Source: a virus
Direction: 5' to 3' (one strand)
Length of the DNA stretch: 49,335 bases
IMG/VR virus record: IMGVR_UViG_3300031839_000948
Location: 1-49,335 of that record
A program made the position numbers and the translations under genes. Every line of letters starts with the position of its first letter. Within the stretch, counting starts at the first letter, position 1. The notes under the pieces were generated by a model. That model was not told the origin of the DNA. It searched no databases and worked only from the letters and a program-made list of their open reading frames with translations. This document shows positions 8-48,004 of this stretch, in pieces.

Positions 8-83
8 TGGCTGGGGCGGCGGGACTCGAACCAACAACTTCCTGGGTAACAACCAGGCGTTCTGCCAATTGAACTACACCCCA
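8..83 (-). tRNA. tRNA-Asn (anticodon GTT)
   Basis: Read on the minus strand, the sequence folds as a full cloverleaf: acceptor TGGGGTG (83-77) pairs with CGCCCCA (18-12), D-arm GTTC/GAAC, anticodon stem CCTGG/CCAGG enclosing TTGTTAC with anticodon GTT at 50-48, and a T-arm with loop TTCGAGT and one T-C mismatch. The discriminator is G and CCA is encoded at 10-8, both normal for bacterial tRNA-Asn. It lies at the 3' end of the early operon, and its 5' ten bases overlap the end of the resolvase gene, so it is probably cut out of that transcript. Confidence 0.95.
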
Positions 84-595
84 AGGTTAATCGCATACAT
101 AGCTATACAAGCGGCGTCAGCTAGGCCGTCGTGAGGTTTTCTCTTTGCTCCAGGGGTAAGGTCTAGCTTAGGCAAACGGGACGTTACAGCGTAAATAGAG
201 CGTCCTTTACCAGTACCAGGCACACCAGCTAAGATTGATTTAATCCATGCTGATGCTCGAACCTCTGTAAGAGGGATACCAAACGAGGCCACAGTTGCTA
301 CCCATAGACCATATCCATAGCCACAACTGAACATCGAGGTCACACCCTGCCCCGGCATAGCGTGTTGTTTCTCTAATACAACAAGTCTCACGTTGTATTT
401 TTCAGACAAACACTTGATTGCATATGCCATTCTTGGGGCAAGGTACTCCCTCTTTGAGCCTTTACCGACACCAATAGTAAAGTCTTGCTTAGTCATATAA
501 CTAGCAACAACGGTTCCCTTGTTATCTAAGGCAACAAGGGCTCCATCTTTACCTGGATCGATACCTACGTACACATCTGTCTTACTATCGGGCAC
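74..595 (-). CDS. RuvC-like Holliday junction resolvase
   Basis: The 173-residue protein has the RNase H-fold layout of RuvC: GIDPG near the N-terminus (Asp13), a hydrophobic strand ending in LVVLEKQ (Glu75), and a C-terminal HDGLADAACIA block (Asp156, Asp160). These acidic residues are the expected metal-binding set. In phages such enzymes resolve recombination branches before packaging, which fits its place after Rad52-like, nuclease and SSB genes. The start is GTG at 595, overlapping the stop of the preceding small gene. The TAG stop lies inside the tRNA-Asn gene. Length is close to the usual 150-180 residues. Confidence 0.88.
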   Translation of the reverse strand: MPDSKTDVYVGIDPGKDGALVALDNKGTVVASYMTKQDFTIGVGKGSKREYLAPRMAYAIKCLSEKYNVRLVVLEKQHAMPGQGVTSMFSCGYGYGLWVATVASFGIPLTEVRASAWIKSILAGVPGTGKGRSIYAVTSRLPKLDLTPGAKRKPHDGLADAACIAMYAINLGV

Positions 596-836
596 TTACC
601 ATCTCTTGTGTAAGACCAAAGGTTGAGCCGTTTGATGGAGAGCGGTACCAGTACAGTCCCTCATCACCATCGCTAAACAGCGCACCCATTAAGTTACCCG
701 TAGTATCTACTGATATGACAGTTACTCCGTCTTCTATAATCTTGCATAGAGATGATCTCATAGCATTGATAGTGTGGGGAATAACCATAACAGGGCCTAC
801 TGTATCATCGATTTCAGAAGCCATACTTTTCATCAT
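585..836 (-). CDS. Small protein of unknown function between SSB and resolvase
   Basis: This 83-residue reading starts at ATG 836 (ATGATG), with AAGGA ten bases upstream, and overlaps the last 23 bases of the SSB gene. A longer reading of the frame back to 1082 is only a shadow of SSB. The protein is globular looking, with hydrophobic strands (VGPVMVIPHTINAM, DGVTVISVD, GLYWYRSP) and no motif I recognise. Its stop overlaps the resolvase start, so it is translationally linked within the recombination operon; a role there is inferred only from position. Confidence 0.7.
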   Translation of the reverse strand: MMKSMASEIDDTVGPVMVIPHTINAMRSSLCKIIEDGVTVISVDTTGNLMGALFSDGDEGLYWYRSPSNGSTFGLTQEMVSAR

Positions 837-1272
837 ATCCAGCGTTTCCTTGTGCAACAGAGCTTCCGTTTTGTTGAGAGGTAGTCGGAGGATAGGCTGA
901 TGGCGCTGACCCATGCTGCGCTTGTTGCGCTTGTGGCGGAGCACCGCCCTGTGCAGACTGAGCTTGTCCCTGCTGTTGCTCGGCTTCTCCAACGCGAGAA
1001 ACAGACGAAGCAACGATTGCCGTAAACCAAACCTTTTGCCCGTTCTTCTCATATGATGAATGCTTAATAGCTCCTTCAACACTTATCAGTTCTCCTTCTC
1101 GAAGAGAAGAGATCAACTCTCCTGTCCGACCAAACCCTTCTACAGAGTGTGTAGTATCAAACCTTCTCCCATCGTGGATAATCTTCCAGGTTCCCATTCT
1201 AAACGATGTTGCAGACCCACGGCTTTGTGGCTCGCTCTTTACTTTTCCAACTAGCATTACTTTATTGATCAC
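814..1272 (-). CDS. ssb: Single-stranded DNA-binding protein (SSB)
   Basis: The 152-residue protein has an N-terminal OB-fold (about residues 1-95): INKVMLVGKV, a TSFRMGTWKI strand, VEGFGRTGELISSLREGELISVEGAIKH, then KVWFTAIVAS. A Gln/Ala/Pro/Ser-rich linker follows, ending DEKYGF. That final aromatic residue recalls the SSB tip that recruits partner proteins, although the usual run of aspartates is weak here. The start is GTG at 1272 behind TAGGAG, overlapping the nuclease gene by 11 bases. It would coat single strands during replication and annealing. Confidence 0.88.
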   Translation of the reverse strand: MINKVMLVGKVKSEPQSRGSATSFRMGTWKIIHDGRRFDTTHSVEGFGRTGELISSLREGELISVEGAIKHSSYEKNGQKVWFTAIVASSVSRVGEAEQQQGQAQSAQGGAPPQAQQAQHGSAPSAYPPTTSQQNGSSVAQGNAGYDEKYGF

Positions 1273-2227
1273 GATCTTCTCCTACTGAGACTTTAATTTT
1301 ATGGGATTTCTTGAGCCAACGTGACTCTTGAACATGTTCTTCTGCAAACGGAAAGCATCGTTTGTAGTACCTGCAATAGTCGCAGGGGAAAGACAACCGA
1401 CCTTTCTTGTCCGGCCCATGTGGTCTTTCAATATCTTCTGGCTCAATGCTCTGAACCACCCGTCTAAACTTATCTTTGATGTTGACTACAGCGTCAGCAT
1501 CATACTTGATCCACTGTCCATGCAAGGCAGACACGGGCAACCAACTGCCATCGTCAAACACCTCTGCATCCTTTGCGCCTGCTGTCTTACTATACGCTAC
1601 CAAGTAAGCCCACTCGTAGCCCTTGCTGGCCATGTAAGACTGCACCTGATTGTAGTATGAATCATCAGGGCCTAAGCCCTCTTTCCTAAACTTACCAAAG
1701 CCATACTCAGACATGGACTTAACTTCTAAGATTGCATGTATTGGTTCACTGGACTGTGTCATCACAACCATTGAGCCATCTGGGTGACCACTGATTTTAG
1801 CAGTATGTCCTGGCTTAATAGGAACTTGAAGCATTACCTCCTCTTGCTCATTAAGCGCACCAAATAGTGTACCTGCACCGCTCTCCTCAAATGCCTCCAT
1901 CAGTGCAGATACAAGGATTGCTTCTGTTGTATCTCCAACAATAAAGGCAAGCTTAGATGCAGCATCAATACCAAGCCCGCTCTCTTCAGCATGGTGGTAC
2001 TGATATGCCAACTGTCTAATGCAAGTACCGCTCTGTGATAAACGCAGACCACCAGTTGAGTCTCGAACTTCATGCAACTGCCTAAGTATTGACTCACCAA
2101 GCTTTTGTGCTGAGTGATTGCTGCTCAATAGCTTTGCTGGTTTAGCAAGCCTATCAGCTATTAATGACGCCAAGTCAGGCATCCACAACTCAGAACCATT
2201 CGGTTCAATTATATGATTCCACTTCAT
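1262..2227 (-). CDS. Cas4/RecB-type PD-(D/E)XK nuclease with four-cysteine cluster
   Basis: Counting from ATG 2227 (behind GAGGA), the 321-residue protein shows the RecB nuclease core: GHPDG (Asp150), ILEVK (Glu168, Lys170) and a QVQSYM helix (Gln195). One early cysteine (Cys69, SGTCIRQ) and a C-terminal CDYCRYYKRC (Cys282, Cys285, Cys291) match the iron-sulfur arrangement of Cas4 and AddB-type nucleases. In phages such enzymes resect ends for a partner annealing protein, here the Rad52-like gene upstream in the same operon. No CRISPR array or other cas gene is present, so a CRISPR role is unlikely. An in-frame start at 2266 is possible but has no better ribosome site. Confidence 0.85.
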   Translation of the reverse strand: MKWNHIIEPNGSELWMPDLASLIADRLAKPAKLLSSNHSAQKLGESILRQLHEVRDSTGGLRLSQSGTCIRQLAYQYHHAEESGLGIDAASKLAFIVGDTTEAILVSALMEAFEESGAGTLFGALNEQEEVMLQVPIKPGHTAKISGHPDGSMVVMTQSSEPIHAILEVKSMSEYGFGKFRKEGLGPDDSYYNQVQSYMASKGYEWAYLVAYSKTAGAKDAEVFDDGSWLPVSALHGQWIKYDADAVVNIKDKFRRVVQSIEPEDIERPHGPDKKGRLSFPCDYCRYYKRCFPFAEEHVQESRWLKKSHKIKVSVGEDRDQ

Positions 2228-2543
2228 AAATATTATCCTCATCAAGAGATTTAATATGGTCAGCAAGAACGTAGAGGCTCAGTCCACTACCCGTACTAAC
2301 CATGGCCATGCGGCCTATTACACTTACAAGATCACCAGACTTTGCTAGCTTCTCAACTATACGCGCTGGCCTACCAAGGGCCATCAACGGAACACGCAGG
2401 TCATATTTTCTGTACTGCTCACTTGGATTGTAAAGCTTTGCTATTACTTTAGTTCCAGAGTTTTTAGTATGGCCCATATTTGAAACACCCTCAAGGTATC
2501 CAATAAGCGTCACACTATTAGGGAACTTATGTTTGAATGACAC
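2205..2543 (-). CDS. Second SSB-like OB-fold protein
   Basis: The 112-residue protein has an SSB-like strand order: NSVTLIGYLEGV, KVIAKLYNP, YDLRVPLMALGRPARIVEKL, then SGDLVSVIGRMA and LYVLADHI. The arrangement resembles a minimal OB-fold without the C-terminal tail of the SSB at 814-1272. I chose the GTG start at 2543 because GAGGAGG lies six bases before it; an upstream ATG at 2570 lacks such a site. It overlaps the nuclease gene by 23 bases. Presence of two OB-fold proteins in one operon suggests distinct roles, perhaps one for replication and one for annealing; this is inference. Confidence 0.62.
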   Translation of the reverse strand: MSFKHKFPNSVTLIGYLEGVSNMGHTKNSGTKVIAKLYNPSEQYRKYDLRVPLMALGRPARIVEKLAKSGDLVSVIGRMAMVSTGSGLSLYVLADHIKSLDEDNIYEVESYN

Positions 2544-2784
2544 TATCGTCCTCCTCAAAACAATCGACACATGTCACCACACCTGTGTCGTCATCTATAT
2601 GTTTGATTCCATTCTTCGAGTACCAATGTTCGCAGTTGTTGCATATATCTGCTGGTTCACAAAACTCTTGGTCTCCAACGAGATATCCATGAACTCTGCA
2701 CCCAGTACACCAGAACTCATCTAAGTCCTGTACTATTTTTAGTTCGCTTTTAAGTGAGCTTCTTTGGCATACATCACACTTCAT
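2527..2784 (-). CDS. Small cysteine-rich, probably zinc-binding protein
   Basis: The 85-residue protein has four CxxC pairs: Cys3/Cys6, Cys26/Cys29, Cys48/Cys51 and Cys72/Cys75, plus Cys42. They suggest two zinc ribbons or knuckles. The rest is acidic. The ATG at 2784 overlaps the previous stop as TGATG, with GAGGGTGAG immediately before it; an in-frame GTG one codon earlier is too close to the ribosome site. Partner and function are unknown; nucleic-acid or protein binding is plausible for such ribbons. Confidence 0.65.
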   Translation of the reverse strand: MKCDVCQRSSLKSELKIVQDLDEFWCTGCRVHGYLVGDQEFCEPADICNNCEHWYSKNGIKHIDDDTGVVTCVDCFEEDDSVIQT

Positions 2785-3074
2785 CACTCACCCTCATAGA
2801 ATCTGTCGGAGTTGTAGTCAGGTACTTCTTTCGGTTCATACGATGCAACCCGTCTGGCGTGGTGGTATCCACTCGTTGCGCTTATCGAGTTCAAGGCTCT
2901 GATTAGCCCCACTTTCTTTGTGGGTAGCTCGAATACGGACACTTCTATAGCCGTGTCATTGTCGGTGTCTTCGATGAAGGTTTTGGCTGCTCGTGTAGCC
3001 TCTGCTTTGTTGGCGTAGAAGGTAACCGTTGGTCCTTCTTCGTGTTCCCATCGATATACTTGGTAGATTTTCAT
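2784..3074 (-). CDS. Small accessory protein, unknown function
   Basis: The 96-residue protein starts MKIYQVYRWEH and contains a predicted helix FYANKAEATRAAKTFIED, then a strand-rich middle (AIEVSVFELPTKKVGL). Its layout is like the many small phage proteins that begin MKIY and carry an NKAEA helix, whose function is unknown to me. It ends Glu-Gly-Glu because the next gene's ribosome site (GAGGGTGAG) is translated. Start and stop are coupled to both neighbours through TGATG junctions. Confidence 0.65.
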   Translation of the reverse strand: MKIYQVYRWEHEEGPTVTFYANKAEATRAAKTFIEDTDNDTAIEVSVFELPTKKVGLIRALNSISATSGYHHARRVASYEPKEVPDYNSDRFYEGE

Positions 3075-3403
3075 CACTCACCTCCTTCGTTTATTGAAAT
3101 CATTACGACCTTGTCCGCGCGTAGCTTCTGAGACTCTTCCATATGAAAAGCCTCGACGGCATCCAATCCGTAGTGCCGCCTGAGTCGCTTCTCGAAATGC
3201 TTCAGAGTTGCTGCTATTGAGTCAAGCAGTTCGAGCTTAGTCTCTGCACGCTGCGAATAGATTTCGCGAATATCGTCGCCCCATTTGTCCTTACTGCGCT
3301 CGTAATCTTTACGCGCCCTGGTCCGCATCCTGCGTATAGCAGTGTTCAGGACGCACAACTCATACCAAGACAGCCCAGCCGTGTCTGATTCTATAAAGTC
3401 CAT
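3074..3403 (-). CDS. Small helical accessory protein, unknown function
   Basis: This 109-residue protein is strongly helical and charged, with LNTAIRRMRTRARKDYERSK and KLELLDSIAATLKHFEKR segments suggesting a coiled coil over residues 20-80. No known motif is visible. It begins at ATG 3403 in a TGATG junction (preceding sequence GGGGGTGAG) and ends Asn-Glu-Gly-Gly-Glu, the C-terminal Gly-Gly-Glu coming from the ribosome site of the next gene. Confidence 0.62.
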   Translation of the reverse strand: MDFIESDTAGLSWYELCVLNTAIRRMRTRARKDYERSKDKWGDDIREIYSQRAETKLELLDSIAATLKHFEKRLRRHYGLDAVEAFHMEESQKLRADKVVMISINEGGE

Positions 3404-3612
3404 CACTCACCCCCTACGTTACGGCGCCTTGCAATCACAGCTTCGCAAATACGTTTGAGAGTAAAGAGGTCGTCCATGTCGAGGCATTCATCCAGCAAAT
3501 CCTCGTTTACGATAACGGAAGCATGGATAGCGGGTTGAAAGGGTTGCGCTGAATCGACACATACATTGAGAATCCATTTGAATGAGTCAGGTAGTTGGAC
3601 CTTGTCTTCCAT
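3403..3612 (-). CDS. Small accessory protein, unknown function
   Basis: A 69-residue protein containing PDSFKWILNVCVDSA, an acidic LLDECLDMDDLFTLKRICEAV helix, and a basic IARRR end followed by Gly-Gly-Glu. I recognise no family. The ATG at 3612 is coupled to the preceding stop by GGAGGTGAGTGATG. Base composition resembles its neighbours, so it is likely a genuine, co-translated member of the block. Confidence 0.6.
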   Translation of the reverse strand: MEDKVQLPDSFKWILNVCVDSAQPFQPAIHASVIVNEDLLDECLDMDDLFTLKRICEAVIARRRNVGGE

Positions 3613-3863
3613 CACTCACCTCCATTGTGTGCTGAGAGTTTCTGATTGAGTTCGGAGATTGCTGCTTCGAGCACGGGGTGGTCTGCTGATCGTAAATAGC
3701 GGGGAGACATTACGGCTGCGAAGTACATAGGGCGCTTGCCGGGTATCCGATAGAGCGACATATTCTCAAGGTGACAGTAGTAAATGTCCGTCATTGGTCG
3801 GCGTTTACCTTTGTGATCCTCGTCGCGTTCGACGTATATCCATTCGTAGGTATCAACCGGCAT
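3612..3863 (-). CDS. Small accessory protein, unknown function
   Basis: The 83-residue protein starts MPVDTYEWIYVERDEDHKGK, has a central strand-like YYCHLENMSLYRIP and a C-terminal helix HPVLEAAISELNQKL, then Gly-Gly-Glu. No family recognised. The ATG at 3863 is joined to the Rad52-like gene's stop by GGAGGTGAGTGATG, so it should be translated by ribosomes finishing that gene. Being immediately downstream of the annealing protein does not by itself show a shared role. Confidence 0.62.
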   Translation of the reverse strand: MPVDTYEWIYVERDEDHKGKRRPMTDIYYCHLENMSLYRIPGKRPMYFAAVMSPRYLRSADHPVLEAAISELNQKLSAHNGGE

Positions 3864-4630
3864 CACTCACCTCCCTGTTTGGCCAGACGCTCTTTAAATG
3901 TCGAATAGTTTCCAACTGCAGTGTCAAACACATCGTCTTTGTGCCAAGTAAATAAACGAGAAGACGCTTCCAGAAGCTCATCCAATGTCATATTGGAAGG
4001 AACAAACTCCTCTTGACCAAGACCATGGAACTTTCCGTCTTTGTATGAAGCTGTTGCAGCCTCCATTACAAGCGGAATATTCTCACGAAGAACACCCTGA
4101 TTACGAAGAACAGAACGAATGCTTTCCAGCCTTTCCTGTCGTGGGTCTGGCGGATACAAGTGCTTTTGTAGCTCTTGTACCGAAGGCGCAATGCCGTACT
4201 TGGTCTGCTCTCCTCGCTTTGAAGCGATTACAATGTAGTGCTTAGGGCAGGACGGCCTCTCTGTAGACAGGTTTACCTTGGTCTCACCCAATGAGTAAAG
4301 GTGTCTACCAATGCCCCACTTTACAGCGGCCCTCTTGAATGCGTCAGAGATTCCACCCTTGTCGCCCTCAATATTAGTATTGCCTGCACCATCAGACTTA
4401 GTGACCCACTCGCCATCTACCTTAATAGATAGCTCACACATGTTCTTACCATTGGGCGTCTCGAAGTACTTGTCTTGCCAGTTACCCGGACCAACGGCTG
4501 AGTCCAGTCTATTCATTACAGCACGCGCATCCAGATAGCAGAGCACACGCGCCCAGCTTCCAAACGACCTATCAATACGCCAGAAAACATCTTCATCATC
4601 GAAGGGTTTTGTCAGTTTATTCCAATCCAT
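3863..4630 (-). CDS. Rad52/Sak-type single-strand annealing protein
   Basis: The 255-residue protein carries the Rad52/Rad22 family signature: RVLCYLDARAVMNRLDSAVG, strand ELSIKVDGEWVTKSDGAG, and DAFKRAAVKWGIGRHLY (about residues 96-112), typical of phage Sak-like recombinases that form rings and anneal complementary strands. The C-terminal 100 residues are more divergent and may bind SSB or other partners. The start is ATG 4630 behind AAGGAG; a TTG two codons earlier is unlikely. It overlaps the HTH gene by 14 bases. With the downstream nuclease and OB-fold proteins it forms a complete recombination set. Confidence 0.88.
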   Translation of the reverse strand: MDWNKLTKPFDDEDVFWRIDRSFGSWARVLCYLDARAVMNRLDSAVGPGNWQDKYFETPNGKNMCELSIKVDGEWVTKSDGAGNTNIEGDKGGISDAFKRAAVKWGIGRHLYSLGETKVNLSTERPSCPKHYIVIASKRGEQTKYGIAPSVQELQKHLYPPDPRQERLESIRSVLRNQGVLRENIPLVMEAATASYKDGKFHGLGQEEFVPSNMTLDELLEASSRLFTWHKDDVFDTAVGNYSTFKERLAKQGGE

Positions 4631-6684: not shown

Positions 6685-7582
6685 GAATAATATTGTAGTA
6701 CCAAATAAAGCATTAGCAGGTGGACGGATAGACCTAAGAAAGCTTGGTATACCACTTGGTTGGTATCATAAACGACAGCGTAAGAAGGTGCGCTGGCAAA
6801 TATTAAACGTAGGTCTAATACAAATAGGTATTACAACTTACTTTGTTGGTGTTTGCGTAAGTAGAAAAGATATCTTTATAGGTAGAGACGGAAAGCTTTG
6901 GAGGTATGAGGGTATCCAATTGCGTGAGCAGGTTCCATCCATCCTTGGATTAGATAAAGAAGATCTTACGGCGTGGGCTGATGCTATCTCAAGAGCAATA
7001 ATAGACAGGCTGTCTTCCGAAAACGAAACAGAAGTATTAGATAAGTCAAACCTTAGATATCGTAAGATAGTAAAGGCTCTTGTACAGCAAAGAATACTGG
7101 ACGCAGCAACCCTTGGGTATGAGTGTACACCTGAAACATTTGCTCGCGGTATATCAGTAAGCTGGGACTACCTTGACTTACTAAATCCACGCATTGCATC
7201 CATAAGACATGCAACATTAGTATCTCTTGTTCTTGCTTTAGAGGCGGACAAAGCAGCACAGCTAATAGAACTTGCAGCACTAATAGAGATGCGTGTTCCA
7301 ATGGTATCAAGAGAAGCAGCACTATCCATCTATCAACAGTCAGTGTCCTTACTATCGAGGTTGTGTCCACAATGGTGGAACCAGGGGTATACGTGCAACT
7401 GGTCTCTTGTTGGAGACATAGACAGACTATTTCGTGCTCAATATATACGCATGATTAACAATGCTTTTGATTCTGGTATCCAGTTTGAAACTGCTGGGGG
7501 TCAAGTGCTTAGAGACATGACAGAAAGCGAGGCTTATTACGAAGCGAACAAGGGCGATTGGGATGAGTTCATAGAAGAGTAA
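6662..7582 (+). CDS. Protein of unknown function, about 306 residues
   Basis: Starting at ATG 6662 (MKKAWTTKNN) behind GAGG, the protein overlaps the repressor by 23 bases. Its N-terminus is basic (WYHKRQRKKVRW), then strands GLIQIGITTYFVGVCV and DIFIGRDGKLWRYEG suggest a small beta unit, followed by a mostly helical region and a tryptophan-rich segment (LCPQWWNQGYTCNWSLVGDIDRL). The end is acidic. I recognise no family. Its early position after the repressor suggests regulation or host takeover, but that is only context. The frame back to 6608 is a shadow of the repressor. Confidence 0.75.
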   Translation: MKKAWTTKNNIVVPNKALAGGRIDLRKLGIPLGWYHKRQRKKVRWQILNVGLIQIGITTYFVGVCVSRKDIFIGRDGKLWRYEGIQLREQVPSILGLDKEDLTAWADAISRAIIDRLSSENETEVLDKSNLRYRKIVKALVQQRILDAATLGYECTPETFARGISVSWDYLDLLNPRIASIRHATLVSLVLALEADKAAQLIELAALIEMRVPMVSREAALSIYQQSVSLLSRLCPQWWNQGYTCNWSLVGDIDRLFRAQYIRMINNAFDSGIQFETAGGQVLRDMTESEAYYEANKGDWDEFIEE

Positions 7583-10876: not shown

Positions 10877-11059
10877 TTACATATGGTGTTTAACTACCAT
10901 CCAGGTTTCAATAGCGCAGATAGCCTTACTTTTTTCTTGTCCATGCCAGAAGACATTGAACCTATCGTTACCACGCTTTGTGACGTAGCCCTTTCCAACC
11001 TTGATTATCCACAAGCCCTCATCAATAGCGTCACGATAATATATATTAGGCGTCGGCAT
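10877..11059 (-). CDS. Small accessory protein, unknown function
   Basis: A 60-residue protein starting MPTPNIYYRDAIDEGLWIIK, with strands WIIKVGKGYVTKR and RFNVFWHGQE. No family recognised. ATG 11059 is coupled to the preceding stop by GGAGGTGAGTAATG. It is the last gene of this leftward block. Confidence 0.6.
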   Translation of the reverse strand: MPTPNIYYRDAIDEGLWIIKVGKGYVTKRGNDRFNVFWHGQEKSKAICAIETWMVVKHHM

Positions 11060-11381
11060 TACTCACCTCCTTCGTTTAGTTTTATAGTAATAAAGCTTCC
11101 ATCCCACTCATTCCCATTCAGGTGAAGCACTGACCCGCTATTGTATACCCGTACATTGGGAAGCCCGTTAAGGCGTTCCCTTGTTGTCATTGTATTCCAA
11201 CCGTCGGTTGTAATATCAATCTCGTCATTGCAGTCACGTTGTGCAATCAGATTGTCGAAGAGGTATAGTCCAACCCACCCGTCCTTCGTTGCAATAACCT
11301 GAGTATTGTCTCTACCGAAATGCTTGCCTTCCATAAAGGCTTTACATGCGTCTCTTGTAATGGCTCGCATCACTCACCTCC
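11057..11381 (-). repeat. Two further GGAGGTGAGT(G/A)ATG junctions
   Basis: The same stop/ribosome-site/start junction as at 2782-3874 recurs at 11381-11368 (GGAGGTGAGTGATG) and 11070-11057 (GGAGGTGAGTAATG). Both upstream proteins end Glu-Gly-Gly-Glu. Confidence 0.9.
11059..11370 (-). CDS. Small phage accessory protein of a widespread type
   Basis: The 103-residue protein begins MRAITRDACKAFMEGKHF and includes NTQVIATKDGWVGLYLFDNLIA, GWNTMTTRERLNGLPNVRV and VLHLNGNEWDG. I recall this pattern (GWNT-TTRERLN, LNG-WDG) from many phage and plasmid proteins of unknown role. It ends Gly-Gly-Glu. ATG 11370 is coupled to the previous stop by GGAGGTGAGTGATG. Confidence 0.7.
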   Translation of the reverse strand: MRAITRDACKAFMEGKHFGRDNTQVIATKDGWVGLYLFDNLIAQRDCNDEIDITTDGWNTMTTRERLNGLPNVRVYNSGSVLHLNGNEWDGSFITIKLNEGGE

Positions 11382-11735
11382 TTCATTGCAATCATCCCAG
11401 TCATCATCATCATCGAACTCGGGGAATGCATCGCCCCATTCTGATGCTGTAATGCCCGTTTGTATGAACTCTCGGTGCTCAGCATTGATGCCAGTGAATG
11501 CAATCTGCGATGACTCTTCAGACATCCATAGTCTGAGCATACTTATTGTAAGTCCATCGATGTAGATATCTCTGGTCTCACCTGTCAGCATTGACGTCCT
11601 TCGGATTACAAGACCACTATCTAATAGAGTCGGGTCTATATCCTTCGGATATACAACCATACTATCAATACGCTGCTCAATCTCAGCATCAGTTGGCTTG
11701 TATAGTGCCTTGCTTATTACGTTTGTAATGTCCAT
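11370..11735 (-). CDS. Acidic accessory protein, unknown function
   Basis: From ATG 11735, behind AAGGA, the 121-residue protein starts MDITNVISKALYKPTDAEIE and ends in the acidic run FDDDDDWDDCNEGGE. The middle has DSGLVIRRTSMLTGETRDIY strands. No family recognised; a negatively charged tail can mimic DNA or bind basic partners, but this is speculation. The CAAAGA-loop hairpin lies just before its ribosome site. An in-frame start at 11786 would read through that hairpin and is unlikely. Confidence 0.62.
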   Translation of the reverse strand: MDITNVISKALYKPTDAEIEQRIDSMVVYPKDIDPTLLDSGLVIRRTSMLTGETRDIYIDGLTISMLRLWMSEESSQIAFTGINAEHREFIQTGITASEWGDAFPEFDDDDDWDDCNEGGE

Positions 11736-34177: not shown

Positions 34178-37100
34178 ATGGCCAAAGGTACACCTATTGC
34201 TCCAGCCACAGAAACATCTCCTCAGACTGAAGCATTTACAAAAAAAGATGTAGTACTGGACTTGCCTGAAATAGTTGCGCCACTACCTAAAAGTGCTCCT
34301 TTAGAAGTAACTGAACAAGATGATGACTCTTGGTTCAGTACTTTGTTTGATGACGACGATGATTATGTACCTTTAGAAGAGCGTCAGATTGAAGATTCTC
34401 GGATGCTTCCGTCTAAAGATGACTTTAAAGCTGCACTTAATTTAACGAAAGAATCAAGAGATCCAATTGAATCTCAGTTTGGTGTAGTCGATTCTTACAG
34501 TACTAAAAAATTAGACATTGAGCAGTATGAGAAAGAGAGTGAACTTGAGCCTATAGAGATAGTAAAGACAGTCGCTTCTTCAGCTTATAAAAGTGCTGTT
34601 CCTGCTCAAACAAGAGCACTGAATACTGTTCTATACACTACTGTTTCAGAAAAAATAGGCTCAATTGCTAAGGCGGGAGGCTTCCTTCTTGGCAATTTAG
34701 AGTACGCAGATGTTCCAAGAAGCGAAACATGGACTACCGGATACTTAGCCGGGTCTGCCTTGCCAGATACAGACACTTTTACTGGTGATGCTCTTGAAGA
34801 CCTTGCAGGCAAGGGATTTTCTGGAGCAGCAAAGCTGTATGACTTCTTTGCTTCTGATATGACTTCTAACTTTCGCTCAGATCAGCAAGAAGAAGACTAC
34901 TACAAAGACATTCAGAAGCTTGGTGAAAACATATACTCAGCTTTTGCTGATAAAACGCTCTACAACAAAGCAATTCAAACTCCTGGCTACTTTATTGATC
35001 GACCAGATGCAGGAATCTTGCACGGTGGAAACGCTACAGGAGAAGACCTACTTAATATAGCTTTTCCTATTGATATGATGAGGAGGCTGGAGGCTAATGC
35101 TCCAGCTTGGGGTTCTGATAAAACACTAAGACCAGATTCAACAGCATTTAAGCTTAAAGCGTTGTCTGATCCTGTGACTCGAATGGGATTAGGGCTTGCT
35201 CTTGAAGTTGCCGTTGATCCATTGTGGTTTTTTGGTTCAGCCAAAGCAACACAAGTAGTCCATACTGGAGGAAAAGCATATCATCTAAGCCGATCTGGAT
35301 CGCGTGTTGCTGGACTACTTGAACGGTATTCAAACGTAGTTGGAAGCGCAATACGGCACCGTAAAACGGTAGTAAAAGCTATAAATGGAGCAGATTTAGA
35401 CGAAGTTTCTAAGGCTCAAGCTCAGTTGTTTGAAGTATCGGACAATGCTTTATCAGAAGCACGAGAAGCACAAGTAAAAGCTGCAAAGTTTCAAAAGCTT
35501 TCTGAATCAGCCAAGTCTGGGAATATAGATGAAGCCGTTGAAGTACTTAAAAAAGAATATCTTGATGAAGTAGAAGAACTTAAAGACTTGTCATTAAAGT
35601 ATTCTGGTGAAGAGTCTGGAAAGCTAGTAAAAGCTAACTATACTAAGACCTTACAGACAATAGAAAGAATTAAAAAGGATATTGAGCTACTTTCTTCTGG
35701 AACTCCTGAGGGTGTTCGCAAAGCTTTGCTTTCTAAGGCTAAGAATTGGATTGATACAGCACGTACACATCGTGCAGCAGCTTCAGAGATACGCTCATTT
35801 TTAGATGTAGTTAATACTAGTGGTTCCGCTAAAACAGCAGGGCTTGTAGAAAAAAGTAAGATCCCTTTGCTTGGAACAGTTCATGTTCCTTTTGCAGAGT
35901 CTACATATACAGTCGGCACTAAAGGACAGATTGAAACAGCAGCTAAATACATCAATACGGCACTTGGCCCTGATAGTAGAATACTGACTCCAATTAGAAC
36001 CCTAAAAGAAGGGTACGAAACCCTTTCATCCTCTGCTATTGGTAGAAAAATATCGGCAGCAAGAAATGCTGGATACGATGCGTTGGCGTACCTTTCTCCT
36101 GGAGAAAGGCTTGCTTACATATCACGTATAGTTTCAGTTCCATTTAGAGAAATGACCTATAATGTTGCAGACACAATGGCGGAAATACTTGGAACACGTC
36201 ATTGGCAGGGCCTGGTAGCCTCTGAGAGCCTTAAGGCTGAGATGGCGTACCTGGGCAACAGAAGCGCTACGATGATGGGCCTAACGCCCGCTGAGAGCGG
36301 TTTAGTTAGAATGAAAAGACTCCGCCCTGAATTGTGGGAGAGCTACCAAGCAGCCACAACAAACTACATGAAGCAACTTTCTTTTGAGACAGCTAATGCT
36401 GCTCTTAAAATTAAGACTATGTGGACACTTGCTGGAGGAACAAACGGAAAAGGCGGAGCACTAGCTGAGTGGAAAAAGAGAATAAAAACTAGAGATCTTC
36501 CTCTACTTGATTCTGAAATTGAGTCACTAGTGGTTTCAATTAGAAAGTCTAACTCTACTTCACAAATAGATATTTTAAAGAAAGAGCTTAATTTTAAGCG
36601 GTCAAAAAGAAATGACTTAAATGAAATTATTAGTGATGAATACACTATAGAAGACTTCATGCAAGAGATTGCAAGGCTTCATGAGACTGGTGCTGGAAAG
36701 ATACAAGACAACCCTTGGCTACAAAGCATACATAATAAATGGTCTGAAATTGAGTCTGAGCTATCTCAACAGCTAAGCAAGCCTACTGAAGAAATCAGAC
36801 AAGCACTGATTGCTATGCTTAGGTACGGCGAAAGAGATGATGTAAAAACAGCAGGCATTGTTAGGCGACTTCAAAATATTGGACAGCTAAAGACGTCGCC
36901 AGGAAAAGCTGATTCTGCTGCTAAAGTTAGCGTTGACGAAATAACGACTGCTCAAAAAGTCCGGATTAATTCAAAAACAAAGCTTTTAAACTCTGTTACC
37001 ACCAAGAAGCTTACTGAGATTCTTTACAGAACACTGGAAGTATCTGGAGAAGCAAAGTTTAATAATGAAATTGCTAAGGCAATTGATAATGCTTTGCTTA

Positions 37101-40100
37101 AAGCGCTTGATGGAGATCGTGATTTAGCTGATGAAATACTCACTTATGCTGGTGCGTACTACGGCAAATCACCTGAAGAGTCTCTAAAGTTTTTAGCTTT
37201 GGAGTACTCTGGAGAAGCAGCAAGAATAAAAGAGCAGATTAAAGCTGGAAATCTTCGTGCTCGTTGGCCAGCAACAAAGAAAACGCCTACTGCTGAACCA
37301 CATCCTTTTTGGTCTGAATCTACTCCAGATACCCCTGGAATAGACAGCACTATAACCATAGAAGAATTTGCTCAGATAATTAAAAACAAAGACCTTGAGC
37401 ACGCTGCATTTTTTGACTTTAAAACAGGAAAGATAATCACCTACAACATAGGTGAAGCAGACAAAGTTGATCCTGCTGTAAATCTGTACTCAAAACTTTC
37501 AACTGATGAAGAAAAAGCACTACAAGCAGCACAAAAACTTCGGAGTGATCAAGCACCCGATGAATTTTTTGAAAAGCTCACAGAGCTAGTCGCTACTGGT
37601 GATGTAGTAGCAATACACAATCATCCTATTTCTACTAGCAAAAGCGCTATTGCAGAAGTTTTTACTGAAGAAGGCATCGCTCAATTTCCAGAGCTAGCTG
37701 GATTGAAACCTTCATTTGATTCTGTCATTACAAACATTCCTCCAAGCATTGAGGATATGAAGTACACAATTGCAATAAATGCAAAGTACCACCTTGTGGT
37801 TAATCCTGATGGAACTGCTTGGTTTATTAATCGCCCAAGAAATGGGTGGCCGCTTGTAAGCAATGACTCTATTAATTTTAGAAAAAGAATGGAAGAGATT
37901 GAAATTAATCTCAATAGAGTAGATGATTCAAGTCCGTTTAGTAGTGTACAAATTAATGATGACTTAGCAGAACGGTATCAAGCTTCTAATGAAGCTCTTA
38001 ATGATCAAATAATTTTAATGATTGAAGATCTTCAAGATCTAAAAGAGTCATTTGATAATGGCCTTCTTTCATTAAAGGCATATAAGACACTTAGGCAAAA
38101 CAAAGTTGATGATTGGTCATCTACTTTAATTAATAAGCAATTTAGAGAACTTACGGAGATCGAACTAAATGTCTTCCAAGAATACTTCGGAATCAAGCCG
38201 TTCAGAGTCAACCTTCCCGGAAGGTTCAAGTCAAAGTCAGCGCTTCTCTTGGGCGACACGGCAGACGTTGCAAAAATTGAAAGACGCATTGTTAGAGACA
38301 GAATTAAAAACTCGATCCAAGACGCAAAGCTAACGACTCAAGCCGCGTTAAATGAAATTCGAGACTACCGACTAAACCCAGAAGGTAGTCATAAATTGAC
38401 TATGGTCTCTTCTGAGGCTCAGTCTATTGTAGATACACGCTACGCTAACAGTATTGACGAGTTTGATGAGTTTGCCTCCCGGCATAACTTTTTAAACGAA
38501 GAGTCTGAAGAGGCTCTTTACGATGAACTGGTTCGATGGGTTGAGTCTGACTTTCCAGAGGGAGTTGCTATACCTGGCGTTTCTCGTAGTGCTGGTGACT
38601 GGCTCATTGAGAAAGCAGAAGTTCTAGAGCTACCAGAAAGTATTGTTGCCCGAGACATAGACGACATGAAACGGTCTATTCTCAGAGTTAAACAAGTAGA
38701 AGACAGCTTTAGGGAACGCATAAGCATACTTACAAAGGCTTCTAAGCGACTTGAGCGGACAGGTGGACCCCTGACTAAGGGTCAGATCCTAAAAGACAAA
38801 GCAAAGCTACGTAAGCAGCTTACAGAAAATGTAATAAGAAACCTTCTTAAGGATTCTCCAGACGAAGCTACTGCTATAGTTAGAGTACGCAATGCTTTAG
38901 ATGAGTTGCTTGATCTTCCAGATGATCCAATCTTTACTAAAGTTAAAGACGAGATGTCTGAAGTCTTAGTTAAAAAGACGTACAAGAAAACCAAGGTCAG
39001 TGATGTTTTAGCTGAAGCAAAAGCATCAGGTAAATCACTAGCTGCAGTAGAAGTTGAGAAGCTTAAAAAAGAATTGGCTGAGTCTATTCCAAGACTAAAG
39101 ATTCCCAATCTTAAAGAATCTGGAACTTTTAATGTTAAGCCTCTTGAGCAGTGGGAAGTTGATGTATGGGATCGCTTCAACGCAGTAACTGCAAACCTAA
39201 GCGAAGAAGAAGTGCTTCTTACTGCTTATGCCGCCCTTTCAGACTCTCCTAAGCTCTTTAATGCAAAGACTCTTAGCGGTGACTACTACAAAGAACTTGG
39301 TGTTCAATACGGCAAGATTAAAGAGCGGTATGAAAACCTTGTTGGTCGCCGAATGGAAGAAATTCCAGAGGAGCTACAGCCTGTAGTTGATGCTTTCAAG
39401 GGACTTATAGAGCATTACCAAGACCTGTATATAAAGTATGGAATGGACTTTGTTAAGTCTCCAGTAGACATGATGAAGATGTGGGGAACAGTCAACTATG
39501 CTCCGCATGAAAAACTGACTCTTAGAGAGACCATTAAGGGAGATCCAATAAGACAAAAGTTATCCAGTAAGGCTGGATATAAGGCAAACGTTACTGCTCG
39601 ATCTTTAGAGGATGCGTTCTCTGCTAATATGGACCAGAGAAAGTATAGAAAGCTGTCTGGAACTATGGCTGAGCTTAATGATGCTTTAAACGGAAAGGAT
39701 GGAATTTACGGGATTGATCCTATGAACCTTGCTTCAAGGTTTATGAAAGCAGCAAGGGTTATTTCCGGCGAAGAGTTCATGTTCTCTCTGATATCTACCG
39801 GAGTCATGAAACCAATTTCTTCAAAGACTGTGTACGACAGCATGATTGAAGAGCTTGCTAATAAGTACAAACTTTATCTTGATAGAGAAATAGATACAGT
39901 TGCATCAGATGTTTTAGATATTGCAGTAAGAAACAAGGCAACAAAGTCTGAGCTTAAAACCCTTGATGATGCTCTTGAAGCAGCAGAAGAAGCTAAATCA
40001 CTAAACCTTCCTGTAGAGATGGTTCCATCAGCACAGCGTGCTGCTGATATGAACTATGTCCCAGTATTTAGGGTGGCTTCTCCAAAGTTGAGCGGAGATT

Positions 40101-42373
40101 TAGTCAATATAGTAAACAAGCTTACAACAGATTTGATTATTTCTGGAGACGCTTCTTCTTGGGCTCGCATAGGTCTAACGCCAGACAATGTTCTTGAGTT
40201 ATTTCAAGACATGAAGACCTACACTAAAGATAGAAAAGAAGACTTGTTTGCTAAGTTTACAAGAGAGTCTACGACTATCCGTAACTCAGATAAAATTATT
40301 GCTACTCTTTCTGAGATTAAAGCCGACAACTTCTTAAAGAATGAAGAGCTATACAATCCATTAGTTGCTTTTGAACGTTTGTATTCTGAAGAACTTAATA
40401 TGAAGAGATTGCTTTACGGAAAGCGTGGGAAATCTCCAGATGAAATTGCATCTCTTTTAGCAAAAGAAGCAAACAACCTAAAAATAAAATCTTGGGATCG
40501 TGTTGCTGATGAAATGAATGCAGCAGCATCAGCCATCAACTCACAAAACAGGGTGTCTAGTGGTGAATCACTAAAGACTTTTTATACTGAAGGTCAAGAG
40601 CTTTGGAATCTATACCTTCCTGCTGTAGTAAAAACATCTATGGACAACTTGTTTGTTAAAAGCAAGTACTTAGACAACTGGGCAGGAGATACTGCTCGTA
40701 AGTTTAATAACTTCTGGAAGATTAGAACTACAATTATTGCTTCAGCGTTTCACGCTCGAAACTTTACTTCAAACCAGTTGTCTAATGTTTTAGATGTTGG
40801 CGCTGCTATGCTTGACCCTGCCGTTGCTCTTGAGGCTGGTCGATTAACCACACTATCACATGTGTTTGATAGGTATGGGTCTATTGAGGCAGCCAAAAAA
40901 GTCTTAGGAATGAAGAGAGGCTTGGCAGAGAGCGCCGCTCGATTCAATAAGCGAAAAACTTCTTTAAGTATTATTAATTCTTTAGGCGCAGATAAAGGTT
41001 TCGATCTTGGTGACGGGGTCATTAAGACTGCTGATGAAGCTATTGAAATTCTTAGAGAGCGTGGTGTTGTTTCTGGTGGAATGCAGCAGTTTGTTGATAT
41101 TGATCTATTTGAAAGCTCATTAGCCGATGTTTATGCTTCTGCTGGCGTAAAAGATAAGCTTACTAAAGCAAAGAAAGTTCTATCCTTCCTTGAGGATGGA
41201 ATGATTGTTGGTTTACCCATGCTTATTGCAGGTATGCCTATACCTGTCGGTCTTCCAAAGGGTCTTGGTTCTGCTGTTGGTCGTACTTTTGAAAACCACG
41301 CTAGAATTTCAAACTTTATTATCAATACAAAGAAAACTTTAAGCTACGACACTGCTGCTAAACATGTAGATAAGTTTTTGTTTAACTATGGTGATTTGAC
41401 TCAAAAGCAAAAAGGTTGGATGCGTCTGTTAGTTCCGTTCTTTACTTGGACACAGAAAAACGTTGCCCTTCAGCTAGAAATGATGCAGAAAAACCCTATT
41501 TTCTATGCAAACTTTCAGCGTCTGCTCATCCACCAAGGGCCAGAGATTGTTGAAAGATACAACGCAGAGACTCTCGGCATTCCATACATACCTAGACGTG
41601 GATCTAGTAAAGAGTCGTTAGCGTTTCAAGATGCTCATGTCAGGAACTTGGTTCGCTTTCCAGTACCTGGACAGCCTGGGTATTACATAGAAGGTCTTGG
41701 TCTTCCACAAGAAGCGTTTTTCCAACAGATTGAAGATATTACTCAACTGTCCGGTATTGTTAAAAAGACACGGCTAGACAGAAGAAAGCCTCATCTAAAG
41801 ATGATTGGTCAAACTCACTTTGCTCTTAAGCTTGCCTATGAATTAGCTGAACAAAGAAGTGCGTTCTTTGATAGACCAATGGCTGATATGACCTACGGTA
41901 GAGATGCCCTTACGATGATTAAGGGTATTAGACGAATCCCCCTTGTAGGCAACGGTCTCTCTGATTTCCTGGCAACAGAATCAGGGCTTGTAGTTACTCA
42001 GCCATGGAGAGCAAAAAGTGCCTCGATGATGGATGACGTTCATATAAATGGAACTGCCAACTGGGTACTAAACAATACTCCATGGTCTCGCGTTATGAAA
42101 GAAGGTGCAGCAGCAGCAACTCTGTACAATTTGACCTATCTGGACAGGATGCCAAGAGACATGAGAGAAGATTACCTTTCTCATGATTATGAGCCTATTG
42201 CTCCTTGGTGGAAAATAGCTGATGCGGTAGGAACTATTCGTATAGTTGCAGATAATCCTGAAGCCAGACAAGCACGATACAACCGTGATATAAACATAAG
42301 GCGTGAAGCCCTATTGAGAGATGCGGGTATTAGTGGTTCGGTTCCAATTAGATTTATTAAGGATAACAAATGA
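34178..42373 (+). CDS. Giant virion/polyvalent protein with JAMM-like motif
   Basis: The 2731-residue protein occupies one sixth of the genome. The first third is charged and helical. Around 1080-1220 lies a compact beta region with VAIHNHP (His1147, His1149) and PPSIEDM (Ser1190, Asp1193), then KYHLVVNPDGTAWFINRP; H-x-H-P plus S-x-x-D is the JAMM/MPN metalloprotease signature, here with a 39-residue gap. Near 2350 is a hydrophobic LPMLIAGMPIPVGLP segment, and at about 2407-2430 TQKQKGWMRLLVPFFTWTQK resembles the LPD38 domain of phage polyvalent proteins. Together with the two preceding genes it is placed as a T7 gp16-like ejection protein. Injected metalloprotease activity is a hypothesis. 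Confidence 0.7.
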   Translation: MAKGTPIAPATETSPQTEAFTKKDVVLDLPEIVAPLPKSAPLEVTEQDDDSWFSTLFDDDDDYVPLEERQIEDSRMLPSKDDFKAALNLTKESRDPIESQFGVVDSYSTKKLDIEQYEKESELEPIEIVKTVASSAYKSAVPAQTRALNTVLYTTVSEKIGSIAKAGGFLLGNLEYADVPRSETWTTGYLAGSALPDTDTFTGDALEDLAGKGFSGAAKLYDFFASDMTSNFRSDQQEEDYYKDIQKLGENIYSAFADKTLYNKAIQTPGYFIDRPDAGILHGGNATGEDLLNIAFPIDMMRRLEANAPAWGSDKTLRPDSTAFKLKALSDPVTRMGLGLALEVAVDPLWFFGSAKATQVVHTGGKAYHLSRSGSRVAGLLERYSNVVGSAIRHRKTVVKAINGADLDEVSKAQAQLFEVSDNALSEAREAQVKAAKFQKLSESAKSGNIDEAVEVLKKEYLDEVEELKDLSLKYSGEESGKLVKANYTKTLQTIERIKKDIELLSSGTPEGVRKALLSKAKNWIDTARTHRAAASEIRSFLDVVNTSGSAKTAGLVEKSKIPLLGTVHVPFAESTYTVGTKGQIETAAKYINTALGPDSRILTPIRTLKEGYETLSSSAIGRKISAARNAGYDALAYLSPGERLAYISRIVSVPFREMTYNVADTMAEILGTRHWQGLVASESLKAEMAYLGNRSATMMGLTPAESGLVRMKRLRPELWESYQAATTNYMKQLSFETANAALKIKTMWTLAGGTNGKGGALAEWKKRIKTRDLPLLDSEIESLVVSIRKSNSTSQIDILKKELNFKRSKRNDLNEIISDEYTIEDFMQEIARLHETGAGKIQDNPWLQSIHNKWSEIESELSQQLSKPTEEIRQALIAMLRYGERDDVKTAGIVRRLQNIGQLKTSPGKADSAAKVSVDEITTAQKVRINSKTKLLNSVTTKKLTEILYRTLEVSGEAKFNNEIAKAIDNALLKALDGDRDLADEILTYAGAYYGKSPEESLKFLALEYSGEAARIKEQIKAGNLRARWPATKKTPTAEPHPFWSESTPDTPGIDSTITIEEFAQIIKNKDLEHAAFFDFKTGKIITYNIGEADKVDPAVNLYSKLSTDEEKALQAAQKLRSDQAPDEFFEKLTELVATGDVVAIHNHPISTSKSAIAEVFTEEGIAQFPELAGLKPSFDSVITNIPPSIEDMKYTIAINAKYHLVVNPDGTAWFINRPRNGWPLVSNDSINFRKRMEEIEINLNRVDDSSPFSSVQINDDLAERYQASNEALNDQIILMIEDLQDLKESFDNGLLSLKAYKTLRQNKVDDWSSTLINKQFRELTEIELNVFQEYFGIKPFRVNLPGRFKSKSALLLGDTADVAKIERRIVRDRIKNSIQDAKLTTQAALNEIRDYRLNPEGSHKLTMVSSEAQSIVDTRYANSIDEFDEFASRHNFLNEESEEALYDELVRWVESDFPEGVAIPGVSRSAGDWLIEKAEVLELPESIVARDIDDMKRSILRVKQVEDSFRERISILTKASKRLERTGGPLTKGQILKDKAKLRKQLTENVIRNLLKDSPDEATAIVRVRNALDELLDLPDDPIFTKVKDEMSEVLVKKTYKKTKVSDVLAEAKASGKSLAAVEVEKLKKELAESIPRLKIPNLKESGTFNVKPLEQWEVDVWDRFNAVTANLSEEEVLLTAYAALSDSPKLFNAKTLSGDYYKELGVQYGKIKERYENLVGRRMEEIPEELQPVVDAFKGLIEHYQDLYIKYGMDFVKSPVDMMKMWGTVNYAPHEKLTLRETIKGDPIRQKLSSKAGYKANVTARSLEDAFSANMDQRKYRKLSGTMAELNDALNGKDGIYGIDPMNLASRFMKAARVISGEEFMFSLISTGVMKPISSKTVYDSMIEELANKYKLYLDREIDTVASDVLDIAVRNKATKSELKTLDDALEAAEEAKSLNLPVEMVPSAQRAADMNYVPVFRVASPKLSGDLVNIVNKLTTDLIISGDASSWARIGLTPDNVLELFQDMKTYTKDRKEDLFAKFTRESTTIRNSDKIIATLSEIKADNFLKNEELYNPLVAFERLYSEELNMKRLLYGKRGKSPDEIASLLAKEANNLKIKSWDRVADEMNAAASAINSQNRVSSGESLKTFYTEGQELWNLYLPAVVKTSMDNLFVKSKYLDNWAGDTARKFNNFWKIRTTIIASAFHARNFTSNQLSNVLDVGAAMLDPAVALEAGRLTTLSHVFDRYGSIEAAKKVLGMKRGLAESAARFNKRKTSLSIINSLGADKGFDLGDGVIKTADEAIEILRERGVVSGGMQQFVDIDLFESSLADVYASAGVKDKLTKAKKVLSFLEDGMIVGLPMLIAGMPIPVGLPKGLGSAVGRTFENHARISNFIINTKKTLSYDTAAKHVDKFLFNYGDLTQKQKGWMRLLVPFFTWTQKNVALQLEMMQKNPIFYANFQRLLIHQGPEIVERYNAETLGIPYIPRRGSSKESLAFQDAHVRNLVRFPVPGQPGYYIEGLGLPQEAFFQQIEDITQLSGIVKKTRLDRRKPHLKMIGQTHFALKLAYELAEQRSAFFDRPMADMTYGRDALTMIKGIRRIPLVGNGLSDFLATESGLVVTQPWRAKSASMMDDVHINGTANWVLNNTPWSRVMKEGAAAATLYNLTYLDRMPRDMREDYLSHDYEPIAPWWKIADAVGTIRIVADNPEARQARYNRDINIRREALLRDAGISGSVPIRFIKDNK

Positions 42374-46708: not shown

Positions 46709-47145
46709 TACTTTCTTTGCTGGTTGGCGTTGTACTGGCTGTACCTCCAGTTCCTGAACGCCCTGCACCTCCAGCTAAAGTAAAGGGCGAATGCAGAGTT
46801 AATTTTCCTATCAGTCAGGGGCGGTCGCTACCGGATGGCTTGGTATCTCCATCTGTCCTGGCCAACTGTTCGGCAGTGGCCGTCCCGCTTTCGGAATATG
46901 CAGACCTACTCGCTAATGAGCGGTGGGGTTTAGCAATAGAAAAAAGATATAAGCTAGATACGACATATTTAATGCGCGAAAGAGACTGGTATCAGTCTAG
47001 ATTAAATGATGAATTGTCACCTAAGCCTTTCTTGGACAGGCCCTCAACTCAGCGATGGTTAGGTAGAATAGAGACGTTAGTGATAGTAGGAATTGTAACT
47101 GCTGGTCTTGGCGCTACATATCACTACACTTCAGGGAAGCAGTAA
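46705..47145 (+). CDS. Secreted/membrane lysis-cluster protein
   Basis: The 146-residue protein starts at TTG 46705 (GGAG six bases upstream; TTGA overlap with the previous stop). It has an N-terminal signal-like LSLLVGVVLAVPPVP, a proline-rich stretch, two cysteines (Cys30, Cys54) that may form a disulfide, a charged helical region, and a C-terminal hydrophobic LVIVGIVTAGLGATY. Two hydrophobic ends suggest a periplasmic loop anchored at both sides. It may act in envelope disruption; function unproven. Confidence 0.52.
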   Translation: MILSLLVGVVLAVPPVPERPAPPAKVKGECRVNFPISQGRSLPDGLVSPSVLANCSAVAVPLSEYADLLANERWGLAIEKRYKLDTTYLMRERDWYQSRLNDELSPKPFLDRPSTQRWLGRIETLVIVGIVTAGLGATYHYTSGKQ

Positions 47146-47435
47146 TGAATACTAAAGAATGGATAGTGCCTGGTATTACAATTGTTTTTGCAGCAGGAAT
47201 ATCGTTTGCGTCATTGGAGTCTGCCGCTCAAGAGTCTAAGGACTTAGATGATCGGGTAACAGTTCTTGAATCTAAATCAGGAAAGCAAGATGTTGTAGAC
47301 GTTAAGATTGAGGGCATCGAACACCGTCTTGATAAGATGGAGGACATTGTAGCCAAGATGCTTGAGATGCAGCAGCAACAAGCAATCAACCAAGCGGCTA
47401 TCTGCCAAGCTACAAACGCGAACTGCAGTCGATGA
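47145..47435 (+). CDS. One-helix coiled-coil protein, spanin or holin candidate
   Basis: The 96-residue protein has a membrane helix WIVPGITIVFAAGISFAS followed by a coiled coil LDDRVTVLESKSGKQD and GIEHRLDKMEDIVAKMLEMQ, with two cysteines near the C-terminus. A single N-terminal helix plus coiled coil is the plan of inner-membrane spanins. It overlaps the previous gene by TAATG and the lytic enzyme by ATGA. Confidence 0.55.
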   Translation: MNTKEWIVPGITIVFAAGISFASLESAAQESKDLDDRVTVLESKSGKQDVVDVKIEGIEHRLDKMEDIVAKMLEMQQQQAINQAAICQATNANCSR

Positions 47436-48004
47436 GACCTGTACTCTTAGACTATGTAGAGTCTCTTGGTCACGCTGTGTTTGAGTCAGGTGATTACAAC
47501 TTAAACATTATTGGTATTCGGAGTAAGGATCACAAGGCTAATAGCTTTGATGACCGTATCTGCGTAGTCTATAGGGATGAGCAGGGTTGGATTACTCGCA
47601 CCTGGGAATGCACTACTGAGCCAGGAAGATACTGGCTTGAGAACCCCAGTAACGTAAAGGGTACTGCTATCCTTGTACCTGGGCAGTACCGGTCTGTATG
47701 GAAGATCGACAAGCACCAGGGGAGATACGATGCGCTCTGTCAGAGGAACGGTACGGTCAAGACTTATCGTGATGACAACAAAGACGACATTATTGATCTT
47801 GACGTACAGTCTATTACTGAAGGTTATTATGGAATCAATATCCACAAAGCCGGGTCAGACTCTACACAAGTAAACAAATGGTCCGCAGGTTGTCAGGTAT
47901 TTAGCCATAGCGCAGACTTCGATGAGTTCATGAGCCTTTGCTATGCCGCTAAGAGTAAGTGGGGGAATAGCTTTACTTACACGCTTATTGAAGAGCCTGT
48001 ATAG
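47432..48004 (+). CDS. Probable endolysin with YkuD-like SAGC motif
   Basis: The 190-residue protein has GYYGINIHKAG (His138) and, 16 residues later, WSAGCQVF (Cys154), the His...S-x-G-C arrangement of L,D-transpeptidase/YkuD-fold enzymes. Upstream strands (TRTWECTTEPGRYWLE, GTAILVPGQYRSVWKID) fit that beta-rich fold. Several phage lysis enzymes use this motif to cut peptidoglycan cross-links. No signal peptide is seen, so a holin is needed for export. Four of its immediate neighbours are membrane proteins. Confidence 0.72.
   Translation: MRPVLLDYVESLGHAVFESGDYNLNIIGIRSKDHKANSFDDRICVVYRDEQGWITRTWECTTEPGRYWLENPSNVKGTAILVPGQYRSVWKIDKHQGRYDALCQRNGTVKTYRDDNKDDIIDLDVQSITEGYYGINIHKAGSDSTQVNKWSAGCQVFSHSADFDEFMSLCYAAKSKWGNSFTYTLIEEPV

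Follow-up and report, generated by a model that had tools for sequence, protein, structure and literature searches.

A repeated 14-bp stop/start joint is a boundary of small-gene exchange in uncultured phages

A 14-base sequence, GGAGGTGAGTGATG, is repeated at successive gene boundaries in a group of related uncultured phages and is a boundary of gene exchange: genes of the same family stand between copies of this joint beside different neighbors, and DNA identity of approximately 85 to 99% between them ends at base 1 or base 14 of the joint. We regard it as likely that the 14-mer acts as a universal gene joint with two roles, coupling translation and marking the boundaries at which small genes (cassettes) are exchanged, with annealing recombinases probably joining the cassettes. 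The stretch of DNA analyzed, here called the window, consists of positions 1 to 49,335 of IMG/VR record IMGVR_UViG_3300031839_000948; L numbers denote the other viral contigs and loci with which it was compared.

The main array of the window lies at positions 2,527 to 4,630 on the minus strand (Table 1) and includes five successive boundaries with the joint, of which three are exact, one has a single mismatch, and one has two mismatches. All five were located where the initial annotation, made from the letters of the window, had reported a 14-mer or a variant differing by one or two bases. The reading frame at each is GGA GGT GAG TGA, with the stop codon overlapped by the next ATG, so the same sequence supplies the last codons of one gene, the ribosome site of the next, and a TGATG overlap, as that annotation had described. 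Its heading, by which the successive proteins end in Gly-Gly-Glu, was slightly too general; it holds for four of the five upstream proteins (the Erf-like protein and those of 83, 69, and 109 aa) and not for the 96-aa protein, which ends in EGE. The joined proteins were mutually dissimilar, again in agreement with the annotation, with the best blastp match between them having an E value of 0.07. The 83-aa cassette had no PHROG family and no Pfam family above its cutoff, and the 69-aa cassette had a distant relative (40%) in L346. A second, shorter array, which had been overlooked, is found at 10877 to 11735 on the minus strand; its first gene is a 138-aa open reading frame from a GTG start and is shorter if the ATG at 11735 is used. 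Elsewhere in the window, a tRNA-Asn (GTT) gene at 8 to 83 (minus strand) lies right at the record's end, beside the gene for the RuvC-like resolvase, and a 2731-aa reading frame at 34178 to 42373 (plus strand) occupies 8.2 kb of the right half.

Table 1. Features of the two arrays and the adjoining genes, in window coordinates
Feature	Coordinates	Strand	Remarks
RuvC-like Holliday junction resolvase	74..595	-	PHROG 1770, E 2.7e-23
Single-strand DNA-binding protein	814..1272	-	PHROG 44, E 1.1e-16
Cas4-domain/RecE-like exonuclease, partner of the annealing protein	1262..2266	-	PHROG 1990, E 8.4e-23
Backbone gene SFKHKFP..., 112 aa	2205..2543	-	end of the array interval in those Erf relatives readable throughout
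Cys-rich, zinc-ribbon-like protein, 85 aa	2527..2784	-	
Joint 5, GAGGGTGAGTGATG	2782..2795	-	2 mismatches
Cassette c96, 96 aa	2784..3074	-	C terminus YEGE
Joint 4	3072..3085	-	exact
Cassette c109 (family F18), 109 aa	3074..3403	-	C terminus NEGGE
Joint 3, GGGGGTGAGTGATG	3401..3414	-	1 mismatch
Cassette c69, 69 aa	3403..3612	-	C terminus NVGGE
Joint 2	3610..3623	-	exact
Cassette c83, 83 aa	3612..3863	-	C terminus HNGGE
Joint 1, GGAGGTGAGTGATG	3861..3874	-	exact
Erf-like single-strand annealing protein gene	3863..4630	-	PHROG 1097, E 2.5e-49; last codons GGA GGT GAG form the first joint
Second array, last cassette, 60 aa	10877..11059	-	
Second array, joint GGAGGTGAGTAATG	11057..11070	-	1 mismatch
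Second array, 103-aa cassette	11059..11370	-	C terminus NEGGE
Second array, joint	11368..11381	-	exact
Second array, first gene	11370..11735	-	C terminus CNEGGE

In related uncultured phages, single arrays contained as many as 13 exact joints, and the joint direction was uniform within each array. The joint is a repeated start-associated element on unrelated families, with the 261 cassette genes falling into 154 families; the cassettes with joints on both sides numbered 118, with a median length of 94 aa, and 93 of them ended in GGE. The arrays were distributed over at least three backbone types: type 1, that of the window, with the Erf-like protein, helicase gene F33, and a Cas4-type exonuclease; type 2, which carries most of the arrays, with primase and helicase, RecE-like, and RecT genes; and type 3, an SSB/helicase type. 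Eighteen cassette families occurred on more than one backbone type. The most widespread cassette, family F0 (e.g., L127, 2383 to 2868), is pyrimidine dimer DNA glycosylase-like (PF03013, PHROG 624) and occurred on four or more backbone types; its relatives below 60% identity were present in 601 records of the phage collection. With the exception of F0 and weak matches to unknown PHROGs, the cassettes mostly lacked a family in PHROG and Pfam searches. Searches for a close cultured phage found none, and those with cassettes gave no match. One 66.7-kb contig (L109, G019), in which there was no RecT match and no ERF-domain match, carried two arrays on opposite strands, at 46796 to 47819 (plus) and 59769 to 60171 (minus).

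The movement of single cassettes can be followed between contigs. The 109-aa cassette of the window was found in four contigs on two replication backbones with a different left neighbor each time, standing between joints in L095/L126 and L127, which have the other backbone, and in L136, which shares that of the window. The window copy was approximately 88% identical in DNA to those of L126 and L127, with the identity starting and stopping at the joints and none outside. L126 and L127 were themselves nearly identical to the right of the joint and unrelated to its left, where the slot next to the cassette is flanked by homologous genes and is occupied by genes of 148 aa in one contig and 383 aa in the other. 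The cassette is present in L095, whereas L144 and L069 have the same neighbors separated by a single joint, with flank identities to L095 of 91/93% and 90/86%, respectively; L135 and L136 shared 97% identity across 6.4 kb ending with the joint's last base, after which L136 continues with the 109-aa cassette. In L345, a copy of the 96-aa cassette with 91% DNA identity had other neighbors, and a homolog of it was the sole cassette, directly after the Erf gene, in L132.

The interval between the Erf-like gene and the SFKHKFP backbone gene varied among relatives. It was without a cassette in L142 and L138, contained a joint but no cassette in L134, and held one gene in L131 and L132 (with a joint) and in L141 (without a joint), where a homolog of the 85-aa Cys-rich protein of the window follows the Erf-like gene. 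Two genes were found in L135 and L139/L140, one cassette between two joints was found in L137, and the window had five genes. The Erf C terminus aligned as GGE in most relatives. Two contigs nearly identical to the window (samples 3300034407 and 3300032081) contained its array with the gene order unchanged, a point against exchange; an assembly artifact is unlikely given these two further contigs and also because cassettes recur between joints in many samples.

Clean cassette changes between joints, with flanks 80 to 99% identical, were seen in 12 indel and 23 replacement comparisons of contig pairs, which were pairwise and not all independent observations. L157 and L158, for example, which were 98 to 99% identical, differed by a 496-bp indel of two cassettes that left a single 14-bp joint, as well as by a one-cassette replacement between families F15 and F37. 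Among 39 nonredundant contigs, sharp left homology ends fell at a joint in both contigs in 81 of 151 cases, most often at base 1, and sharp right ends did so in 55 of 180, most often at base 14; the crossover point within the identical 14-mer is not visible, and contig pairs do not count as independent observations. Family F0 was found 14 times behind a joint with 14 different left neighbors, and family F6 was found 10 times with 10. The relatives thus did not keep the same genes in the same order but had gained, lost, and replaced cassettes exactly between joints, which supports the proposal in the initial annotation of a modular joint for the insertion or swapping of small genes.

The joint might instead serve translational coupling only. 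Recombination would then take place anywhere, and selection would keep the recombinants with intact genes and ribosome sites; visible breakpoints would therefore lie at gene ends, and the joint would have stayed identical through common descent, kept so by its overlap with coding sequence. The Shine-Dalgarno sequence plus the stop/start overlap does account for 13 of the 14 bases, and exchange at gene boundaries without a joint also occurs at a lower rate, with some breakpoints exactly at start codons. The joint is therefore not the sole route of exchange, and selection that keeps genes intact also plays a part. As a full explanation, however, coupling alone is unlikely. Homologous genes had unrelated upstream DNA in 99 of 110 joint-joint pairs versus 31 of 118 non-joint pairs (90% versus 26%) and unrelated downstream DNA in 59 of 67 versus 13 of 162 (88% versus 8%). 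Restricted to array spans, the difference was 88 of 95 joint pairs versus 8 of 17 non-joint pairs with an unrelated side (93% versus 47%), a comparison that rests on only 17 non-joint pairs. Moreover, the identical joint is common to unrelated backbones, its base 9 is G although T is favored by Shine-Dalgarno pairing, and other genes with strong Shine-Dalgarno sequences have not converged on it.

A joint that both couples translation and delimits exchange would act at two levels. In the RNA, it provides a Shine-Dalgarno sequence of 8 nt, GGAGGTGA, whose spacing is constant and close to optimal and which lies over the last three codons and is followed by the TGATG overlap; from this anatomy, we infer that the joint couples translation and that a gene between two joints would be translated in any frame. 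In the DNA, it is the border at which whole small genes (ATG...GGAGGTGAGTGATG, median 94 aa) are inserted, deleted, or replaced, probably by annealing during replication, either at joints alone or at one joint and, on the opposite side, a shared cassette. The enzymes would be the phages' own annealing protein and exonuclease, Erf-like with Cas4-type in the window and RecT with RecE-like in the other lineage. RecT was found in 12 of the 18 related records, and another 4 are of the Erf-like lineage; RecE/Cas4-type exonucleases, SSB, and RuvC are also encoded. The annealing protein of the window appears to be Erf-like and of the wider Rad52-like kind, an assignment that rests on PHROG 1097; it had no match to PF04404 (ERF), and the Erf profile retrieved no close bacterial relatives, only partial matches of 38 to 39%. 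The minimal efficient pairing segment is 23 to 27 for Red beta and 31 to 34 for RecA (PMC3945230). The 14-bp joint falls short of these published lengths and would on its own work poorly; in many exchanges, one of the crossovers may instead lie in a neighboring cassette that both phages share. Rad52-like phage recombinases, including an Erf, efficiently recombine diverged phage DNA (PMC3945230), and phage annealing recombinases can use poor homology (PMC2327257, PMC3945230). Replication slippage may also give deletions between direct joints. Of the earlier suggestion that genes are exchanged at the joint by the annealing system of the phage itself, the exchange boundary is upheld, and the case for the recombination mechanism is circumstantial, consisting of the Erf-like protein and exonuclease, RecT in 12 of 18 records, and searches of those records that found no tyrosine or serine site-specific recombinase. 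The outcome would be an accessory gene array that forms a common pool for phages with unrelated replication modules. The chances appear evenly balanced that this amounts to an open cassette-exchange system in widespread uncultured phages, in which a 14-bp plug, a common pool, and annealing are combined with immediate translation of the incoming gene.

Integron-like movement of the cassettes by a site-specific recombinase, transposase, or homing nuclease that recognizes the joint would fit the short fixed sequence, the directional arrays, and the clean excision that leaves one copy. Site-specific recombination was nevertheless rejected, as neither a tyrosine integrase (PF00589, 0 of 18) nor a serine resolvase was found in the 18 records, which may be incomplete; the joint is also asymmetric and nearly all explained by its coding and Shine-Dalgarno functions, with no attC-like structure seen. 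We consider such a mechanism very improbable.

The recurrence of the joint exceeds what would be expected by chance or from a good ribosome site. Simple arithmetic gives approximately 0.007 14-mers with two or fewer mismatches in 1.1 kb on both strands, compared with 5 observed; over the whole window, 10 copies with three or fewer mismatches were observed versus 3.8 expected, and as many were found in 3 of 100 shuffles. At least two copies of the joint, and up to six, were present in 14 of 120 loci among the matches listed, whereas a control pattern in which base 9 is changed to T, giving longer Shine-Dalgarno pairing, occurred at least twice in 0 of 120 loci among the matches listed. The reversed pattern was absent from all 30 whole records searched. 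In a contig found via a cassette protein, 8.5 kb contained 13 exact joints, and the whole record contained 14. Array contigs contained 186 GGAGG-N6-ATG starts, 129 of them with TGAGTG as the middle; in control loci, this middle was present in 0 of 7 such starts, and in single-hit loci, with the hit masked, 80 starts had 78 different middles, with TGAGTG not among the commonest shown. In the pattern GGAGGTGA-N-TGATG, N was G in 138 of 144 cases, though T would extend the pairing, and conservation was high across the 14 bases and dropped to approximately 0.3 bits or less right after the start codon. The joint was therefore strongly enriched over an equal or better ribosome site, a comparison that the initial annotation had proposed. 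Ordinary convergence of tightly coupled genes on the best possible ribosome site, which would account for a perfect 8-nt Shine-Dalgarno sequence at a spacing of 6, is rejected by the one-base control scan, the survey of spacing and middles, and the breaking of DNA homology at the joint, and is hardly credible.

The origin of phage mosaicism, by random joining and selection or through short boundary homologies, has been debated for decades. In lambdoid phages, the boundary/linker hypothesis (Clark et al. 2001, HK620, as cited in PMC2327257) explains module exchange by short conserved flanking sequences. The joint resembles those boundary sequences in being a short conserved sequence at the gene border that is common to both phages and at which homology stops. 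One joint stands at every junction, however, so that any cassette can go anywhere, and the 14-mers at successive starts of the lambdoid nin region differ (mean mismatches, 7.3 in lambda and 7.9 in P22), compared with 0.3 to 1.0 in four arrays here. The closest anatomical parallel is provided by the Start-Associated Sequences (SAS) of cluster K mycobacteriophages, a 13-bp repeat with a Shine-Dalgarno core, GGGATAGGAGCCC, that stands a few bases before the starts of numerous small accessory genes, which come from different families and have one orientation, and that sometimes contains the stop codon of the upstream gene (PMC3203893). Like the joint, SAS recurs at the starts of genes from unrelated families; only the Shine-Dalgarno core is common to GGGATAGGAGCCC and GGAGGTGAGTGATG. 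PMC3203893 gives the function of SAS as unknown and does not describe it as marking points of exchange. Among four cluster K genomes, the upstream DNA of SAS genes was homologous in 10 of 15 pairs and unrelated in 5 of 15, a small sample, compared with 11 of 110 and 99 of 110 pairs, respectively, for joint genes, and in this small test SAS genes look less mobile than joint genes.

Integron cassettes are likewise single-gene units with a common boundary and the same orientation that are gained and lost as units. The arrays differ from integrons in the absence of an integrase (PF00589 in 0 of 18 records) and of any attC-like site found and in having a 14-bp joint inside the coding sequence and ribosome site, which equips each cassette with a ribosome signal of its own. 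T4-type mobile regulatory cassettes (promoter stem-loop elements) are short shared intergenic elements proposed for modular phage shuffling. Unlike these promoter or terminator elements between genes, the joint is a stop/Shine-Dalgarno/start overlap without intergenic space. As in the mosaicism attributed to phage annealing recombinases, a Rad52/RecT-type annealing protein and an exonuclease are encoded. A phrase search of the literature for the 14-mer gave no match; short boundary homologies are an old idea, and a single joint across every junction and across unrelated backbones is new.

The arrays provide natural replicates, in which genomes of approximately 99% identity are distinguished by entire cassettes at an identical 14-bp sequence, and the ordinary gene boundaries beside the joints serve as an internal control, making the question of mosaicism directly testable. 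A simple search for the joint finds swappable accessory genes; many have no assigned function, and some may serve counter-defense or host takeover. The joint could also be used to design the frame-independent assembly of genes in standard laboratory phages.

Several cassettes showed further peculiarities. Family F7 (60 aa) was the last cassette, at or next to backbone gene F1, in L153, L157, L158, L162, L064, L069, L095, L127, and L170, as if the array were closed by it. Family F51 had two different 5' ends (L157, 4596 to 4650, versus L158, 6395 to 6450), and its first bases in L157 (ATGGACCTGAGTGACGAACGACTTC) are those of family F7, which suggests an exchange just inside the start codon. In L136, at approximately 6756 to 7277, an altered joint between a 64-aa cassette and the 109-aa cassette fuses both into one 173-aa frame, a possible route from swapped cassettes to multidomain proteins.
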